A DNA stretch of 64,000 bases from Halostagnicola kamekurae (GTDB taxonomy: Archaea > Halobacteriota > Halobacteria > Halobacteriales > Natrialbaceae), in contig NZ_FOZS01000002.1 in assembly GCF_900116205.1 (NCBI RefSeq), forward strand, positions 62,001 through 126,000, read 5' to 3'. The notes beneath the pieces were generated by a model. The model made no database searches, was not told the DNA's origin, and worked only from the letters and a program-made list of their open reading frames with translations. Shown piece after piece: positions 35,201 to 45,280 of this stretch. The position numbers and the translations under genes were made by a program. Position 1 is the first letter of the stretch. Each line of letters starts with the position of its first letter.

Positions 35201-36463
35201 ATGACGCTATTCGAACTCGAGCGGAACGCGGACTTCGAGAAACTCGTCGAGCTCCTCGAGTCGAGCTCGAACCCGAACGTCCGGAGTCGGGCCTGCGAGA
35301 TTATCGGGAGTCTCGAATCCGAGCACGAAGACAGCAAATTTCCCAGAGACGAACTCGTCGACGCCCTGGTGGGGGCGGCAAACGAGGACGAGAGCGAGGA
35401 CGTCCGCGCGACCGCGATCGACGCGCTCGATCAGTACGGACAGGCGGCGCTCGAACAGCTCATCGGCGAGATCATTGGCCAGCCGCTCGAGGACGTCGCC
35501 GAGTGGAAGAAGGCTCAGGCGCTGGCACAGAGTCTGAGCGCGGATCGGCCCGAACTGCGGATGGCCGCCGCGACGGGACTCGGCAAGATCGGCGAGGACA
35601 ACGTCGTCGGGCCACTGGTCAATCAGCTCGGCGATCCCGATCCGCGGGTGCGCAAACGGGTCGCTCGAGCCTGCGGTCGCATCGGTGCCGCAGAGAGCGT
35701 TCCGGGGCTCTCGAAGATCCTCCACGAGGATCAGTACGACGTGCGCGTCGAGGCGGCCTACGCGCTCGCGGACATCGGGTCCGATAACGCCATCCGGGAA
35801 CTCTCGGGGGTCGCCGACGCCGACGACGAGACGCTCCGGCGGATCGCGGTCGACGCGCTCGGCCGTCTCGGAAGCGTCGAGGCGGTCGAACTGCTCGCGG
35901 AGGCGTTGCGTGACGACTCCGAGACCGTTCGCCGGACGGCGATGTTCTCGCTCGTCCAACTGCTCTCGGAAGCGCCGGCGGACGCGAGCCACCAGGTACG
36001 CGAGAAGATCGTCGGCGAGCTAGAGCAGGCAAACGCCAGCGAGTCCGTCCAACCGCTGGTCGACATTTTGACCCAAAGCACCGAGACTGCCCAGCGCCGG
36101 AACGCCGCCTGGTTGCTCGGTCGCGTGGCGGACGACGATCATCGAAGCCAGGCTCAGGACGCGCTGATCGATACGCTCGGTGACGACGATACGATGACCT
36201 CGAAATTCGCGGCGACGAGTCTTTCGATGTTGGATGGAAACGAATTAGAAACCCGCTTGCTCGATCTCGTCGAAAACGAGCACGTCGACGTGGAAACGCG
36301 CGTGCGGGCCCTGTTCGTCCTCGGGAAGATAGGCGGGGATTTATCGCGAGACCGGCTTTCGGGGTTCGTCGACCGAGTGGAGAACGACCGACTGCGAAAG
36401 CGTGGCTTCTCGGCGCTGTCGAAACTCGGCGGCGTCGGCGCGCCAACTGGTGACTTCGCATGA
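35201..36463 (+). CDS. HEAT/PBS-lyase repeat protein of the archaellum-taxis group
   Basis: A 420-residue protein made almost wholly of HEAT-like repeats (about ten, e.g. RMAAATGLGKIGEDNVVGPL, RKRVARACGRIG, RVEAAYALADIG, RRIAVDALGRLG). It forms a translational pair with CheF: its stop TGA overlaps the CheF ATG (ATGA at 36460). In Halobacterium a similar HEAT protein (OE2401F) is encoded next to CheF and interacts with it and CheY in coupling the chemotaxis system to the archaellum; this gene matches that arrangement. Its start, ATG 35201, follows an AT-rich stretch. Confidence 0.84.
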   Translation: MTLFELERNADFEKLVELLESSSNPNVRSRACEIIGSLESEHEDSKFPRDELVDALVGAANEDESEDVRATAIDALDQYGQAALEQLIGEIIGQPLEDVAEWKKAQALAQSLSADRPELRMAAATGLGKIGEDNVVGPLVNQLGDPDPRVRKRVARACGRIGAAESVPGLSKILHEDQYDVRVEAAYALADIGSDNAIRELSGVADADDETLRRIAVDALGRLGSVEAVELLAEALRDDSETVRRTAMFSLVQLLSEAPADASHQVREKIVGELEQANASESVQPLVDILTQSTETAQRRNAAWLLGRVADDDHRSQAQDALIDTLGDDDTMTSKFAATSLSMLDGNELETRLLDLVENEHVDVETRVRALFVLGKIGGDLSRDRLSGFVDRVENDRLRKRGFSALSKLGGVGAPTGDFA

Positions 36464-38053: not shown

Positions 38054-38496
38054 ACGTGTTCGCACGGATCCGACCGCCAAAATCCCGCCACGGACCCGTC
38101 GACTGTGTGTACTGTCTTGGGTCGGGTACTCTCTGCGTTCGTGAAAAGCGTTATCGACGAGTTCTCTGAAATAGACGGCGAATCGTCCGAAAACGAGTCG
38201 ACTGAGGACGTAACCGGTGATAGGCTGATGGAAACGAAGCTATCGACGGCCAAACCGATGACAGCGACGATAGCATCGATCTCTGACGATTCTCCGTCTC
38301 GAGAACAAAGCGATATGCTCTGGCGATCTGTCCTCGAAACCTCATACTGACGGCTGATAAGGAATTAATGTTGACAATATGGTTCTGTGTGAACTGAGTG
38401 TTTTGGATATCGGCCCATATGGGGCGATCTGTGCCATTATAGCTGAATACCACCTATTCCGAATATTTTATACGAAGTTCTTCACACAGGTTCCGT
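38054..38496. other. 443-bp intergenic region
   Basis: No convincing gene. Weak open frames exist on both strands (for example + 38105-38350 and - 38151-38453), but their composition is not acidic and they lack recognisable domains. The right end has a TTTTATACG box about 28 bases before the ATG of the 38497 gene. The AT content is higher than that of flanking genes, consistent with regulatory or decayed sequence. Confidence 0.45.
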
Positions 38497-39555
38497 ATGG
38501 ACGTTCGTTTGGGTCTGTTGGTTTTTCTCATCGTGGGTCCGGTCATGCTGAGTGGACCGGCTGTGGCAGGTTCTACAGCATCGAACCCGCTCGTCTCACA
38601 ACCCGAAAACGTCGACTCGGACGAAATCAGGATGAATGTCGCCGTAGACTCGAACGGGTCTGCTACGTGGAGGATCGAACTCTGGGTTCATCTCGACGAC
38701 AACGAAACAATCGAGGCGTTCGAATCGCTCGAGGACGAAATCGACGAGAACCCGTCGGCTCACACGCAGGAATTTTCAGAGCGAATCGAGACGACCGTCG
38801 ATAGTGCAAGCGAGACAACAAACAGAGAGATGACGGCGAACGAGTTTCGCGTGGCCACCTCGCGTCAATCGTTCGCGCGCGAGTACGGCGTTATCAGCTA
38901 TACGTTCCGGTGGACAGGCTTTGCCGCTGTCGACGGCGACCGATTGCACGTCGGGGACGCAATCGAGGGGATCAATATCGACGATGGCTCGCGCCTGCTG
39001 ATCGAATGGCCGGAAGAGTACGAGCTCGAGTCGATTTCTCCTACTCCGGATACCCAACGCAATCAGGCGGCGCTTTGGCACGGAGGCGAAACCGATTTTA
39101 TATCCGGCGAACCGACGCTCGTTCTCTCGGCAGATGACGGTAGAGCAGTTGCACCTGTGGCCGCAGTCAGTGCTGGCATCGCCGGCGTTGCCGTGATTGG
39201 TGCCGGTTGGTGGTACCGAACTCGTGAAAGCGAGTCCGATCACTCTCCCCCTGTTGACCGGGACACGGAACCGGATGGTGTAATACCTGACACTTCCTCG
39301 GATGACTCGTCTTCGAGCCCGCCTCCGTCACTTATGAGTAACGAAGAACGGCTCCTGTCGCTGCTCGAGGAAAACGGTGGACGAATGAAACAACAAACAG
39401 TCGTGACGGAACTCGGCTGGACAGACGCAAAGACGAGTAAGGTGGTAACCGGATTGCGCGACGAGAACGAACTCGAGTCGTTCCGCATCGGTCGGGAAAA
39501 CGTGCTTTCGCTTCCGAACGCGGATGCGGAGACGTTGGATGATCGATCTGAGTAA
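38497..39555 (+). CDS. Membrane-spanning protein with extracellular domain and cytoplasmic winged helix
   Basis: A 352-residue protein: signal peptide (1-25), extracellular beta-rich domain (about 40-215, homologous in style to the 40643 gene: both have a TIEAFESLED/DAFESLRED motif), one membrane helix (218-240), an acidic Ser/Pro linker, and a cytoplasmic winged helix at 281-340 (EERLLSLLEENGGRMKQQTV, then LGWTDAKTSKVVTGLRDE). This is the haloarchaeal DUF7345-DUF7343 architecture. It could read an external signal and act on DNA directly, a membrane-tethered regulator. Targets are unknown; the neighbouring archaellum and surface genes are candidates. The promoter TTTTATAC is 25-32 bases upstream. 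Confidence 0.77.
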   Translation: MDVRLGLLVFLIVGPVMLSGPAVAGSTASNPLVSQPENVDSDEIRMNVAVDSNGSATWRIELWVHLDDNETIEAFESLEDEIDENPSAHTQEFSERIETTVDSASETTNREMTANEFRVATSRQSFAREYGVISYTFRWTGFAAVDGDRLHVGDAIEGINIDDGSRLLIEWPEEYELESISPTPDTQRNQAALWHGGETDFISGEPTLVLSADDGRAVAPVAAVSAGIAGVAVIGAGWWYRTRESESDHSPPVDRDTEPDGVIPDTSSDDSSSSPPPSLMSNEERLLSLLEENGGRMKQQTVVTELGWTDAKTSKVVTGLRDENELESFRIGRENVLSLPNADAETLDDRSE

Positions 39556-39716
39556 CTCGCTGCGCTCGCCTCTCGGCTGGAACGTGACCGCTTTGTCACC
39601 GGCGAAATCGACAGCAGGAATCGGGGTGAAAAACGAATAAAATCGGCGAAACGGTCGTTGAACCCGGGTGATTATCGCACCGGTCTATTACGGGGGGACA
39701 GCTATGCTCGAGTGCA

Positions 39717-40640
39717 ATGGACCGAACTCCAACGATTACATTGGCATTGGTACTCATTGTCTCTCTGGCAATATTGCCAGTCGGGACGGCGACTGCTCAG
39801 CCAGAGAAGGTACAAGCCGCACAGAACGACCAAGCGACGAACGAATCGATCGCACCCGGTGCGCAGTTAACTGGTGTCCTCGGCGTTCAGAACGCGGAAG
39901 TCAACGGCGCGGTCACCGAGCGAGCATACGGTATCAAAATCGCGAACGCACAGACCGCGGATGCAGAGGCCGCTGTTATCGGCGAGCAATTCGAGGATAT
40001 CGACGATCGGCTCGAGGATCTGGAGGACCGTCGCGACGAACTCGAAGACGAGCGTGACACGGGGAACATTAGCGAGGGAGAATACCGAGCGGAGATTGCC
40101 ACGATTCGGGCCGAACAGGCGACCGCCGAACGATTAGCTGCCGACGCTGAATCCAACGCAAGCGAGTTGCCGGCGGATCTGCTCGAAGAACAGGGAGTCA
40201 ACGCCAGCGCGATTCAAGAACTTAGCGAGCGCGCCGACGAACTCACCGGACCGGAAACCGCTGAGATCGCACAATCGATAGCGGGTAATTCGGCTGGGAG
40301 TCCAGTCGCGGGCGACAACGGTCCCGCTGACGTCCCGGCCGGCCCGCCGGTCGATACCGAGTCGAACCGAACTGAGGCCTCGGTTCCCGCTGCCGAGAAC
40401 ACCCCACGAGAGCGAGGAAACGCCAGCGCTGGTGACTCCTCTTCAGAGCGACCGATTGATGGTGATTCCACGAGCGAATCGGAGCCAAAAGCCGATGAAG
40501 GCGACGAATCGGAGCCAGAAGCTTCCACAAGCAAACCGGAGCCAAAAGCCGATGAAGGCGACGAATCGGAAACAGATCATGGTTCGGAGTCCGACACGTC
40601 GAACAGAGACGACGGTAACTCTCGGCCGGCCTTCGCCTGA
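39717..40640 (+). CDS. Secreted coiled-coil protein with Ser/Glu-rich tail (DUF7096-like)
   Basis: A 307-residue secreted protein. Signal peptide 1-27 (ALVLIVSLAILPVGTATA), a helical coiled coil at about 88-145 (EDIDDRLEDLEDRRDELEDE), and an acidic Ser/Glu/Asp-rich C-terminal tail from about 185. The tail contains a direct repeat, EPKADEGDESE twice (about residues 259-285), encoded by a 32-base DNA repeat. It is probably linked to the cell surface. The stop is two bases before the start of the 40643 gene, so they are co-transcribed. Function is unknown. Confidence 0.7.
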   Translation: MDRTPTITLALVLIVSLAILPVGTATAQPEKVQAAQNDQATNESIAPGAQLTGVLGVQNAEVNGAVTERAYGIKIANAQTADAEAAVIGEQFEDIDDRLEDLEDRRDELEDERDTGNISEGEYRAEIATIRAEQATAERLAADAESNASELPADLLEEQGVNASAIQELSERADELTGPETAEIAQSIAGNSAGSPVAGDNGPADVPAGPPVDTESNRTEASVPAAENTPRERGNASAGDSSSERPIDGDSTSESEPKADEGDESEPEASTSKPEPKADEGDESETDHGSESDTSNRDDGNSRPAFA

Positions 40641-40642
40641 CA

Positions 40643-41362
40643 ATGCGCAGTAGGCTCGCCGCTTTGTGTATCGCCTCGATACTGTTGTCGAGCGGTATCG
40701 CGGCTCCGGTAGCCGGATCGAGTGCCAGCCACGATGGCCCCACCCTCGAGGACGGAGCGGAATCGACCCTCCACATTAACCTGTCCGAGGGCGGTGACGC
40801 AACGGTAACGCTGGTAACCGGCTACAATTTCACGCAGGCCGATGAGCGCGACGCGTTCGAATCGCTTCGCGAAGACGAGGGGGCACAATCGGACTTACTC
40901 GAGCGATTCACCGGCCGGCTCCAGTCGGTCGCGGCCGCTGTCGATAACGATAGCGAACAAGCGGTTTCCGAACACTCAGTCGACCTGCGAACGACCGACG
41001 AACGCGGTTTAGCGGCCTTTTCGGTGACGTGGGACGGACTGGCGACAGTCGACGACCGAACGCTTACCGTCACGGAACCGTTTGCCAGCGGCTTCGAAAC
41101 CGACAGGACTGTCGTTCTCGAAGGACCTGCGAACGCAACGCTCGAGTCGGCTTCGCACGATCCGACAGTTGAAACGGACAATCGGGCAACGTGGGATGCG
41201 GGAACCGATTTCGATGGGTTCGAAGCGGTCCTCTCGCTGCCAACCGAGGATTCCGATACCGGTGTGACCGGGGCCGACGACACGTCAGGGTTGGGTGGCC
41301 TCGTTTCGGTCGCGACGCTCGCCGTGTTCCTCGGCGGGAAAACGCATCTCGCTCGGGAGTAG
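40643..41362 (+). CDS. Secreted DUF7345-like domain protein
   Basis: A 239-residue secreted protein: signal peptide about 1-27, a single beta-rich domain (30-200) of the same kind as in the 38497 protein (motifs NLSEGGDATVTLVTGYNFT and DAFESLRED match NVAVDSNGSATWRIELWVH and EAFESLEDE there), and a short C-terminal hydrophobic segment (about 210-232, GLGGLVSVATLAVFLGG), giving a probable membrane anchor. It lacks the winged helix of its relative. It follows the 39717 gene by two bases and forms a unit with it. The pair may act with the 38497 protein in one pathway (inference). Confidence 0.7.
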   Translation: MRSRLAALCIASILLSSGIAAPVAGSSASHDGPTLEDGAESTLHINLSEGGDATVTLVTGYNFTQADERDAFESLREDEGAQSDLLERFTGRLQSVAAAVDNDSEQAVSEHSVDLRTTDERGLAAFSVTWDGLATVDDRTLTVTEPFASGFETDRTVVLEGPANATLESASHDPTVETDNRATWDAGTDFDGFEAVLSLPTEDSDTGVTGADDTSGLGGLVSVATLAVFLGGKTHLARE

Positions 41363-43315: not shown

Positions 43316-43442
43316 AGTTATATAGTGTCAGATATGGCGAATAGACTTAATACAGATTAGTTAAATATCGATCATACGTTCCGGCTACCCAGCGGAGGCG
43401 CACATATACTTTCGAGGGGTGCTGGAGCAGACACAAACAATA

Positions 43443-44681
43443 ATGTTCGAACAAATCACGGACGAAGAAGAGCGCGGTCAGGTGGGTATCGGTACACTCA
43501 TCGTGTTCATCGCGATGGTACTTGTCGCAGCGATTGCGGCAGGTGTACTGATCAACACCGCCGGTCTTCTGCAGTCCCAGGCGGAGGCAACGGGTCAAGA
43601 AAGTACAGCGCAGGTCTCGAACGTCGTCGAGATCGAGTCGGCGACAGGACAGGTCGCTGGCTCGGGTGCTCCCCTTGAAGATGTTGATATTGTCTTCACT
43701 GAGGTGAACTCTGCACCAAACGAAGAGATTACAGTTTCCACCGGCAGTGGTGAAGAACTAGCGTCAAGTTCCTCACTGACCACTCTCGAAGAGAACCTAG
43801 CCGGATTGGATCTCTCCGATGAGGATACCCTAGAATTTACGACTGCGAGTGGAGGGGACGACCAGACGTACACTATTAGTGCGAACGACGTGAACGAAGA
43901 TGGTGCTATTGATCTCCAGTTTGATCACGATGGCGCCGGTTCGCTGGCTGGTGTGTACAGTCCCTTGAATTTCGATTCCGGAACTTACGGTACCGTCACA
44001 TTCTATGACGAGATCGGACAGCTCGAATCCGTCACCGTCGAGTACAGTGGTTCTGCTGTTACCGGAGCTGACGGGTCCACGCCTCACCTCGATGCAGAAT
44101 TCGGCACTGATGCCTTGGACCTCTCTAGTGATAGCGAAATCACAATCACTGTCGATGACGATGCTTCGAACCCAGAATCCCTCCGTGGTGAATCCGTAAC
44201 TCTCGATCTTGATGCACGAGCACTCGATAATGGAGTCAACATCATTGAAGACAGCGAAGGCGGGATTACTGCTGCAATGGGTGCCGACTACCCAGATAAC
44301 GGCGGCACCGGTGACTACATCGAGACTGCATCGCTGATGGTTTCGCTCGGCCCTGGTGCAGATGCTGTCGACCTCGAAGCAGCAACCTTCGAATACGTCG
44401 GTGAGGAGACCCAGCGCGGTCAGGCTGGTAACCTTGAGCACCTCGACATCGAGAACCTCCAAGGCGACAGTCTCGCTGAGGGTGAACTCGACGACGCTGT
44501 GCTCACCTCCGACGAGCGCTACCAGATCGAACTCGAACTCAACGGCGGTAACAATGAAGACTTCACGCCGATTCAGGCAGGCGAATCTGCAGAATTCTCG
44601 ATTGTCACTGCAGACAACGCACAGACGACTGAAGTGCTGATGGCACCGTCGACGCTGACGTCCGACGCGATCACTCTCTAA
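43443..44681 (+). CDS. Archaellin 1
   Basis: A 412-residue archaellin, the filament subunit of the archaellum. The class III signal is cleaved by the prepilin-like peptidase after Gly12 ([14 protein letters not shown]), followed by the long hydrophobic helix [22 protein letters not shown] that packs in the filament core. The variable surface region (about 60-280) is far longer than that of archaellin 2, with less GC-rich codon use, as in hypervariable filaments. The conserved C-terminus includes [18 protein letters not shown] 43443 is chosen over a start at 43419 because it gives the usual short leader. The three repeats upstream probably hold its promoter. Confidence 0.93.
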
Positions 44682-44725
44682 AACCGGTTTAGAGATAGCT
44701 ACCACACTTCAGGTTTTATTTATTG

Positions 44726-45280
44726 ATGTTCGAGACGGTCTCTGACGGAGATAGACGTGCACAAGTAGGCATTGGGACACTAGTCCTGTTCGTAGCGATG
44801 GTACTCGTCGCTGCGCTCACGGCGGGCGTCCTGATGGGCACTGCTGGCGTCCTTCAGTCACAGGCCGAAGCAACCGGGCAGGAAAGCATCGCACAGGTTT
44901 CGAATAGCCTCAACATTTACACCACGACCGGGACCGTCGACGCCGACGGCAACGTCGACACCCTCGAGATGACGGTGAGCCTGGGCCCCGGATCCAAGCC
45001 AATCGATCTTGACAACGCTGTTATCGACTATGTCGGGCCATCGGGCAGCGCCTATGTGAACGGAATGCCGGTCACCGTCCACGGAACCGACAGCACTATT
45101 CTCGAAGACGATGACGACCGCGGCACGATCACCCTCGATATCGAGTCCAAAGTGGGTGTCCTCGAGCCGGGCGACGAAGCGATAATCAAAATCGTCACCA
45201 ACGACGGCGCACAGATCACTACGGAACTCTCGGTACCGACCACGCTCGACGGCGCCGACGGTGACACGGTTCGGCTGTAG
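44726..45280 (+). CDS. Archaellin 2
   Basis: A 184-residue archaellin with the same core helix ([22 protein letters not shown]) as archaellin 1 but with a much shorter surface domain. The residue at the cleavage position is Ala12 (RRA/QVGIG), where Gly is usual; signal peptidase still often accepts Ala. The gene begins 44 bases after archaellin 1, with an AT-rich TTTTATTTATTG just before ATG 44726; it may be transcribed with archaellin 1 or have its own start. It could be a minor or cap-proximal filament component (inference). Confidence 0.92.

Follow-up and report, generated by a model that had tools for sequence, protein, structure and literature searches.

Membrane-bound one-component regulators are already a known kind of protein, and in the ToxR-ToxS pairing a partner protein modulates the membrane regulator. 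ToxR and CadC are membrane-integrated, carry a sensor domain outside the membrane, and have an N-terminal, cytoplasmic DNA-binding domain and a C-terminal periplasmic domain (partial text of PMC5936718). Among the transmembrane transcription regulators (TTRs) covered by a survey, which join a DNA-binding domain and a membrane helix in one polypeptide, single-pass forms are the commonest, and the partial text of that survey names no haloarchaeal DUF7345 group (PMC10269533). In the archaea, ArnR and ArnR1 of Sulfolobus are membrane-bound, with an N-terminal HTH, a HAMP domain and two C-terminal TM helices; their boxes are inverted repeats, TCGAC-N5-GTCGA, located just upstream of BRE/TATA (-43 to -84) at an archaellum target (partial text of PMC6396743). 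Haloarchaeal type IV pili loci encode a predicted membrane-bound regulator, arCOG00381 (pfam11748; partial text of PMC4858521), and the motility regulator CsmR (hvo_1209) is a winged-helix protein of 13 kDa whose gene precedes the archaellin genes. For the families that concern us here, DUF7345, DUF7343 and DUF7096, Pfam states no function. Our literature search under these names and under PF24034 and PF24036, with most subscription journals outside its scope, found no paper, while other searches returned analogues only.

Here we describe a locus of Halostagnicola kamekurae that compares with these systems in part. The window, the whole stretch of 64,000 nucleotides that was analysed (contig NZ_FOZS01000002.1, positions 62,001 to 126,000), carries on its plus strand the genes that we call R (38497..39555), CC (39717..40640) and S (40643..41362). 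R encodes a protein of 352 aa that consists of a signal peptide, a DUF7345 ectodomain (residues 48-175, 38638..39021; Pfam PF24036, E 1.5e-29), one TM helix (residues ~218-240, 39148..39216), a disordered linker and a C-terminal DUF7343 winged helix (residues 279-340, 39331..39516; PF24034, E 2.8e-27). Both Pfam matches exceed Pfam's cut-offs, and hydrophobic 19-mers occur in R at residues 5-23 and 218-236 only. In the AlphaFold2 model, predicted as a single chain from an input of 45 sequences, the beta-rich ectodomain is ordered over ~43-212 and is followed by a helix (220-243), a linker that is disordered (245-271) and the winged helix (282-338), where pLDDT is mostly >90. The winged helix superposes on MarR/ArsR-type DNA-binding proteins (Z ~10; at rank 2, rmsd 1.5 over 60 residues) and is nearly invariant in the alignment of R orthologues. 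Identity between R and 44 aligned relatives is 31-66%, which excludes a chance ORF. A predicted DNA-binding domain (PF24034, winged-helix fold) and a predicted TM region are therefore present in the same polypeptide.

In a search for a known fold of the ectodomain, Foldseek ranked FMO proteins first for the R model (E 3.7e-7), but with a TM-score of 0.17 and an rmsd of 13.7, and listed mycobacterial LppM (2nc8) lower down (prob 0.99, TM 0.40 by target); the closer structural alignment list was taken up by winged-helix matches. By sequence, no relative with a solved structure was found (best E 0.65 and 0.28), and NCBIfam and PADLOC scans gave nothing informative. In 32 of 120 genomes from the phylum's other families, DUF7345 is present too.

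R is like ToxR and CadC in being a membrane-integrated one-component regulator with an outside sensor domain, but the order of its parts is reversed, its MarR/ArsR-like domain being C-terminal. It shares with the TTRs a DNA-binding domain and a membrane helix in one chain, whereas its signal peptide, C-terminal winged helix, co-conserved secreted partner and predicted repeat operator set it apart from those in the partial text of the survey. Its predicted sites resemble those of ArnR and ArnR1 in their place just upstream of BRE/TATA; R does not have the domain order of these two proteins, and its module carries 10-bp tandem repeats in place of inverted ones. Like arCOG00381, R is predicted to be membrane-bound, yet that regulator belongs to a different family, and PF11748 has no match in R at E up to 1. 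Unlike the small CsmR, R is a protein of 352 aa with a signal peptide and a TM helix. The R-CC module is a variant of the known kind, with new features.

CC encodes the partner of R, a secreted helical (coiled-coil) protein and distant DUF7096 relative. Its one hydrophobic stretch is the signal peptide, and a helical bundle is predicted over residues 47-189; its structure matches (BAG, STAT, CorA and designed bundles) are the typical list for any three-helix bundle. Pfam has no match for CC, and PF23379 (DUF7096) is absent from it at E up to 1. The domain is found (E 1.8e-13) in CC', the counterpart beside a paralogous regulator, R', and CC' matches the CC profile at E 1e-10 to 2e-16 in 13 loci. 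S starts 2 bp past CC and has a signal peptide, a DUF7345 domain (PF24036, E 6.6e-11) and a C-terminal hydrophobic 19-mer at 214-232, with no winged helix. S is therefore best seen as an ectodomain of the R type on a membrane anchor. In Pfam terms, R is DUF7345 plus DUF7343, S is DUF7345, and the partners of R' and of a further paralogue, R4, are DUF7096. An earlier sequence-only reading of this DNA had described R as a signal peptide, ectodomain, single membrane helix and winged helix, and had seen between R and S a gene for a secreted coiled-coil protein, S itself being a related extracellular domain without the winged helix. The domain, hydrophobicity and model evidence confirms this for all three genes, and adds the C-terminal segment of S that the reading had missed.

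We then asked how widely these genes occur together. In a family search of 125 genomes, where a match at E below 1e-20 was taken as a CC place, there are 66 such places in 63 genomes. R is located upstream of CC, on the same strand and within 2.5 kb, at 64 of the 66; the remaining two, in G081 and G119, are CC-S copies whose genomes carry an R-CC pair besides, and R is present in each of the 63 genomes with CC. Among the best 70 R-type places of a longer list, six are without CC, all of which were also found by the query for another paralogue, R2. Across 80 named haloarchaeal loci (Natrialbaceae, Haloferax, Halorussus, Halonotius, Halolamina, Halobaculum and others), CC is downstream of R in 73 and absent at seven (L175, L186, L190, L193, L215, L217 and L218), some of them shortened by contig ends. 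A separate S gene follows CC in 12 of the 80, and S is an optional third gene. These two locus sets and the 94 loci of the motility search described below overlap in genomes, and counts of R, CC and operator are not independent since the loci are related by descent. The co-occurrence of the three genes across haloarchaea, which the earlier reading had proposed as a check, is thus widely kept for R and CC and not for S.

A block of ~90 bp in the R-CC intergenic region is kept in 32 loci and ends ~30 bp before the CC start. In the window this conserved promoter and candidate operator of CC(-S), our block model R1, occupies 39602..39691 on the plus strand. At its core, TTRAWYSG units are repeated in tandem every 10 bp, immediately before the TATA box of CC. 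With this consensus, which was fixed after viewing the alignments, there are 41 unit pairs at exactly 10 bp vs 0.3 in shuffles, and 15 at 20 bp vs 0.1 expected. Chained units occur in 35 of 72 CC upstream regions vs 3 of 62 R upstream regions (shuffle mean 1.24); the simple rule of paired units is satisfied by only about half of the CC upstream regions, and the block model matches more. The starts of the units fall into clusters at 56-59, 66-67 and 75-79 bp before the start of CC, which is upstream of the TATA position. The window's own copy has diverged: the units TAAAATCG (39638..39645, 79 bp before the CC start) and TTGAACCC (39658..39665, 59 bp before it) stand 20 bp apart with a degenerate middle unit between them, and a TATA-like element, TCTATTA, follows at 39684..39690 in the conserved position. 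Upstream of R, the core promoter alone is conserved (TATA-like, 38464..38473 on the plus strand), with no conserved repeat units. The three paired cases among 62 R upstream regions give no sign of autoregulation of R via TTRAWYSG repeats.

The block goes with CC. In L170, L219 and L220, which have 1.3-1.6 kb between R and CC, it stays at CC. In G081 and G119 it stands before the CC-S copies that have no R ahead of them, with four units in a row at 10-bp steps in G119. We thus ruled out that it is a terminator or 3' element of R. In the genome of the window, the CC site scores 59.5 bits; the next best match (18.1 bits, E 0.008) lies inside an ORF and was taken as chance. Every match below an E of 1e-7 in the family search, with block-model E-values being rough, is a CC promoter, so the strong matches are in genomes with R. 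Similarly, 44 of the 51 block-model matches in the 80 named loci are at CC promoters; these include all 14 held-out matches (E up to 0.5), which come from CC loci beyond the training family. The family search also gave weak matches, of which those in G059, G123 and G124 (E 8e-5 to 1e-3) fall inside ORFs. Repeat-like matches are intergenic in G120 and G018, and one in G082 overlaps an ORF start, in genomes with R2-type matches only, or none seen; the weak matches examined leave out some, such as G084:C1:1231634 and G114:C1:163841. Operator-like intergenic repeats in genomes without CC (L138:4194-4239 and L136:4494-4566), one of them in the same genus and upstream of another HTH-like gene, may be chance or R2 sites.

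The paralogous regulators provided a comparison. R' is divergent from a CC'-S' pair in 13 of 13 loci; these were picked via S-type matches, so the S' part of this count is by selection. A 14th locus, L126, has CC'-S' without a regulator match in the stretch examined. Paired TGCAAAYC units are found in 11 of 14 CC' upstream regions vs none of 72 CC upstream regions, all 20 pairs at CC' being at exactly 10 bp, while the TTRAWYSG unit is paired in 1 of 14 CC' regions vs the 35 of 72 at CC. The recognition helices differ along with the repeat and read WTDAKTSKVV in R and WSASKTSRVV in R'. Thus, the 10-bp spacing is kept, the repeat sequence switches between R and R', and operator type tracks regulator type. 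This switch is the best indirect evidence that the R winged helix may read the repeat, and through such operator evidence, which is indirect, R is a putative regulator that controls transcription from the membrane.

At 29 of 30 loci, R4 and a DUF7096 gene are divergently arranged, and unit pairs at the promoter of this R4 partner, 1/29 and 0/29 for the two units, do not go beyond shuffles. The R4-proximal intergenic stretch GGTTTCCC..GGGGAAAAAACACTTTCCAT, which is very conserved beside the R4 start (L231-L260, e.g. L045:9700-10110), is apparently R4's own promoter or leader. R2 has no CC or DUF7096 gene within flanks of ~1.5 kb in 30 of 30 loci, indicating that an R-type winged helix can work without such a partner, and 10-bp units are absent from its own promoter (0/22). 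R2 is found in most family genomes examined, and in L043:7976-10646 it is directly upstream of an argininosuccinate synthase gene.

Other genes of relatives carry the block as well. It precedes F2 in L051, L056 and L145, and by position in L055, and it is at the promoter of a DUF4382-type lipoprotein gene in L140, L141, L148, L151 and L156, the name coming from the Pfam match of a homologue in L051. The products of both genes are exported or lipid-anchored and are encoded in the same island. Given the block at the DUF4382-type promoter, a wider regulon is predicted for Natrinema and Natronorubrum than for the genome of the window. F2 is a small secreted protein with the motif GPPxxLPxPVPxFVSxxLxxIxxF (L151:5532-5810, L056:8429-8707, L060:8156-8542 and others) and no Pfam match at cut-off. 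It is upstream of R in 13 of 13 loci L050-L062, five of which built the F2 model, and in 26 of the 80 named loci. Most loci of Natrialbaceae have it upstream of R, but the Halostagnicola genomes do not; their best match is partial (E 0.0019), and none falls in the window. A Tat/lipoprotein-like DUF4382-type gene is near R at L151:4215-5020, L148:4695 onward and L156:4233 onward. F3, a small multi-helix membrane protein ending GVPG (L047:6661-7996, L053:8928-9302 and L054), is encoded next to DUF7343 proteins of two kinds: R and, in the window's genome, one that has no DUF7345.

We hypothesize that R, anchored in the membrane, is a one-component regulator of the CC promoter, where it acts on the repeats and sets the expression of CC, and of S where present, in a circuit with partner feedback; on the sequence evidence, we regard this as probable. 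The DUF7345 domain would be outside the membrane and the C-terminal winged helix inside, where it would bind the tandem 10-bp repeats just upstream of the BRE/TATA of the CC promoter. R would probably bind as a head-to-tail oligomer, the winged helices of several R molecules being placed on one DNA face with units one helical turn apart. Because the predicted sites are upstream of the TATA element, the usual archaeal activator place (as with the ArnR boxes), activation is the likelier sign, and by this analogy the site position suggests that R activates the CC promoter. CC would most likely act outside the cell on the R ectodomain, or in the same complex, and S may be a co-receptor or decoy. 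In our model, CC, S or both would bind to the ectodomain of R and modulate R, which would make R-CC-S a self-contained circuit. The sequence-only reading had proposed a one-component membrane regulator with secreted partners, and the R-CC adjacency and the operator-like repeat at the CC promoter support that proposal. Against our model stand the 7 of 80 R loci that show no CC, the lack of S at most loci, the diverged operator of the window, and the promoter of the R4 partner, where neither unit forms a 10-bp array.

More tentatively, and as something that we consider possible rather than likely, haloarchaea may hold duplicated autocrine-like circuits, in which R, R' and R4 each serve one secreted helical partner, some with a titrating truncated receptor, S, and which are insulated by different 10-bp tandem-repeat operators. 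If so, a receptor would control the supply of its own ligand, and the cell would read its own surface state, or neighbours making the same secreted protein. Little is known about how archaea read the state of the envelope and pass it to the genome. If the model is true, haloarchaea would have a widespread signalling module for which the receptor, the secreted partner and the exact DNA site can all be named, and a single reporter experiment could test the path from receptor to promoter. The paralogous modules of R and R', which differ in their repeats, would offer a natural specificity test and possible orthogonal parts for haloarchaeal genetics. It is also a first hypothesis for three Pfam families without a stated function, DUF7345, DUF7343 and DUF7096.

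The conserved block at the CC promoter could instead be the operator of another, soluble regulator, with R and CC only functionally linked and the R winged helix contacting other DNA or a protein. R binding to the block is a prediction from sequence, DUF7343 proteins without DUF7345 are encoded in the window's own genome (L046, L047 and L048), and R2 has a recognition helix similar to that of R without having a CC; each of these would fit such a regulator. It would have to accommodate, however, a repeat that switches between R and R' while the 10-bp spacing is kept, and block matches that at E below 1e-7 are all at CC promoters, in genomes with R. We therefore consider a separate soluble regulator unlikely. 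Regulated proteolysis would retain R as the regulator in another form: an outside signal would lead to cleavage of R, and the freed linker and winged helix would act on the CC promoter from the cytoplasm. The disordered linker at 245-271, between the TM helix and the winged helix, would suit cleavage, and a CAAX-type protease family gene (PF02517) is near R in L058, with a homologue near R in L061. As this gene family is near R in only 2 of the 14 R loci compared, we judge this quite improbable.

The circuit with partner feedback, which we prefer, also has to be set against one in which R controls CC and S as surface proteins that exert no feedback on it. In favour of control without feedback, the other likely targets in relatives, F2 and the DUF4382 lipoprotein, carry the block and are exported too. 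Feedback is favoured by the recurrence of CC or DUF7096 relatives beside three regulator subfamilies and by S, an R-type ectodomain that has no winged helix; control without feedback is, in our opinion, a doubtful but serious alternative. A further reading concerns motility, since R had been described as next to the motility region. This is true in the window, where CheF at 36460, archaellins from 43446 and other archaellum genes flank R-CC-S. Yet when 12 proteins of the archaellum/chemotaxis region of the window were compared with 94 R loci (13-19 kb or shorter), 92 had no match, and the matching loci, L049 and L144, are one place in Halostagnicola sp. A-GB9-2. Thus, the archaellum neighbourhood is a feature of the genus and not a property of the family, and the link between R and motility fails in these 92 loci. 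We rejected R as a motility regulator as a family property; such a role might exist in Halostagnicola only. From its place between cheF and the archaellins, R might regulate motility or surface structures of H. kamekurae, and the same gene position in its genome and in Halostagnicola sp. A-GB9-2 would agree with this. With no archaellum or chemotaxis match in the flanks of the 92 loci, and with one strong operator-model site in the window's genome, at CC, such a role appears very improbable, and we caution that a gene's place beside archaellum genes should not be read as its function.

The two Halostagnicola loci differ in other genes. A DUF6517 lipoprotein gene, absent from the window, is directly upstream of R in Halostagnicola sp. 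A-GB9-2 (L049:7148-7912), and this genome has four archaellin-like genes (L049:12826-16921) vs two in the window (43419-45280).
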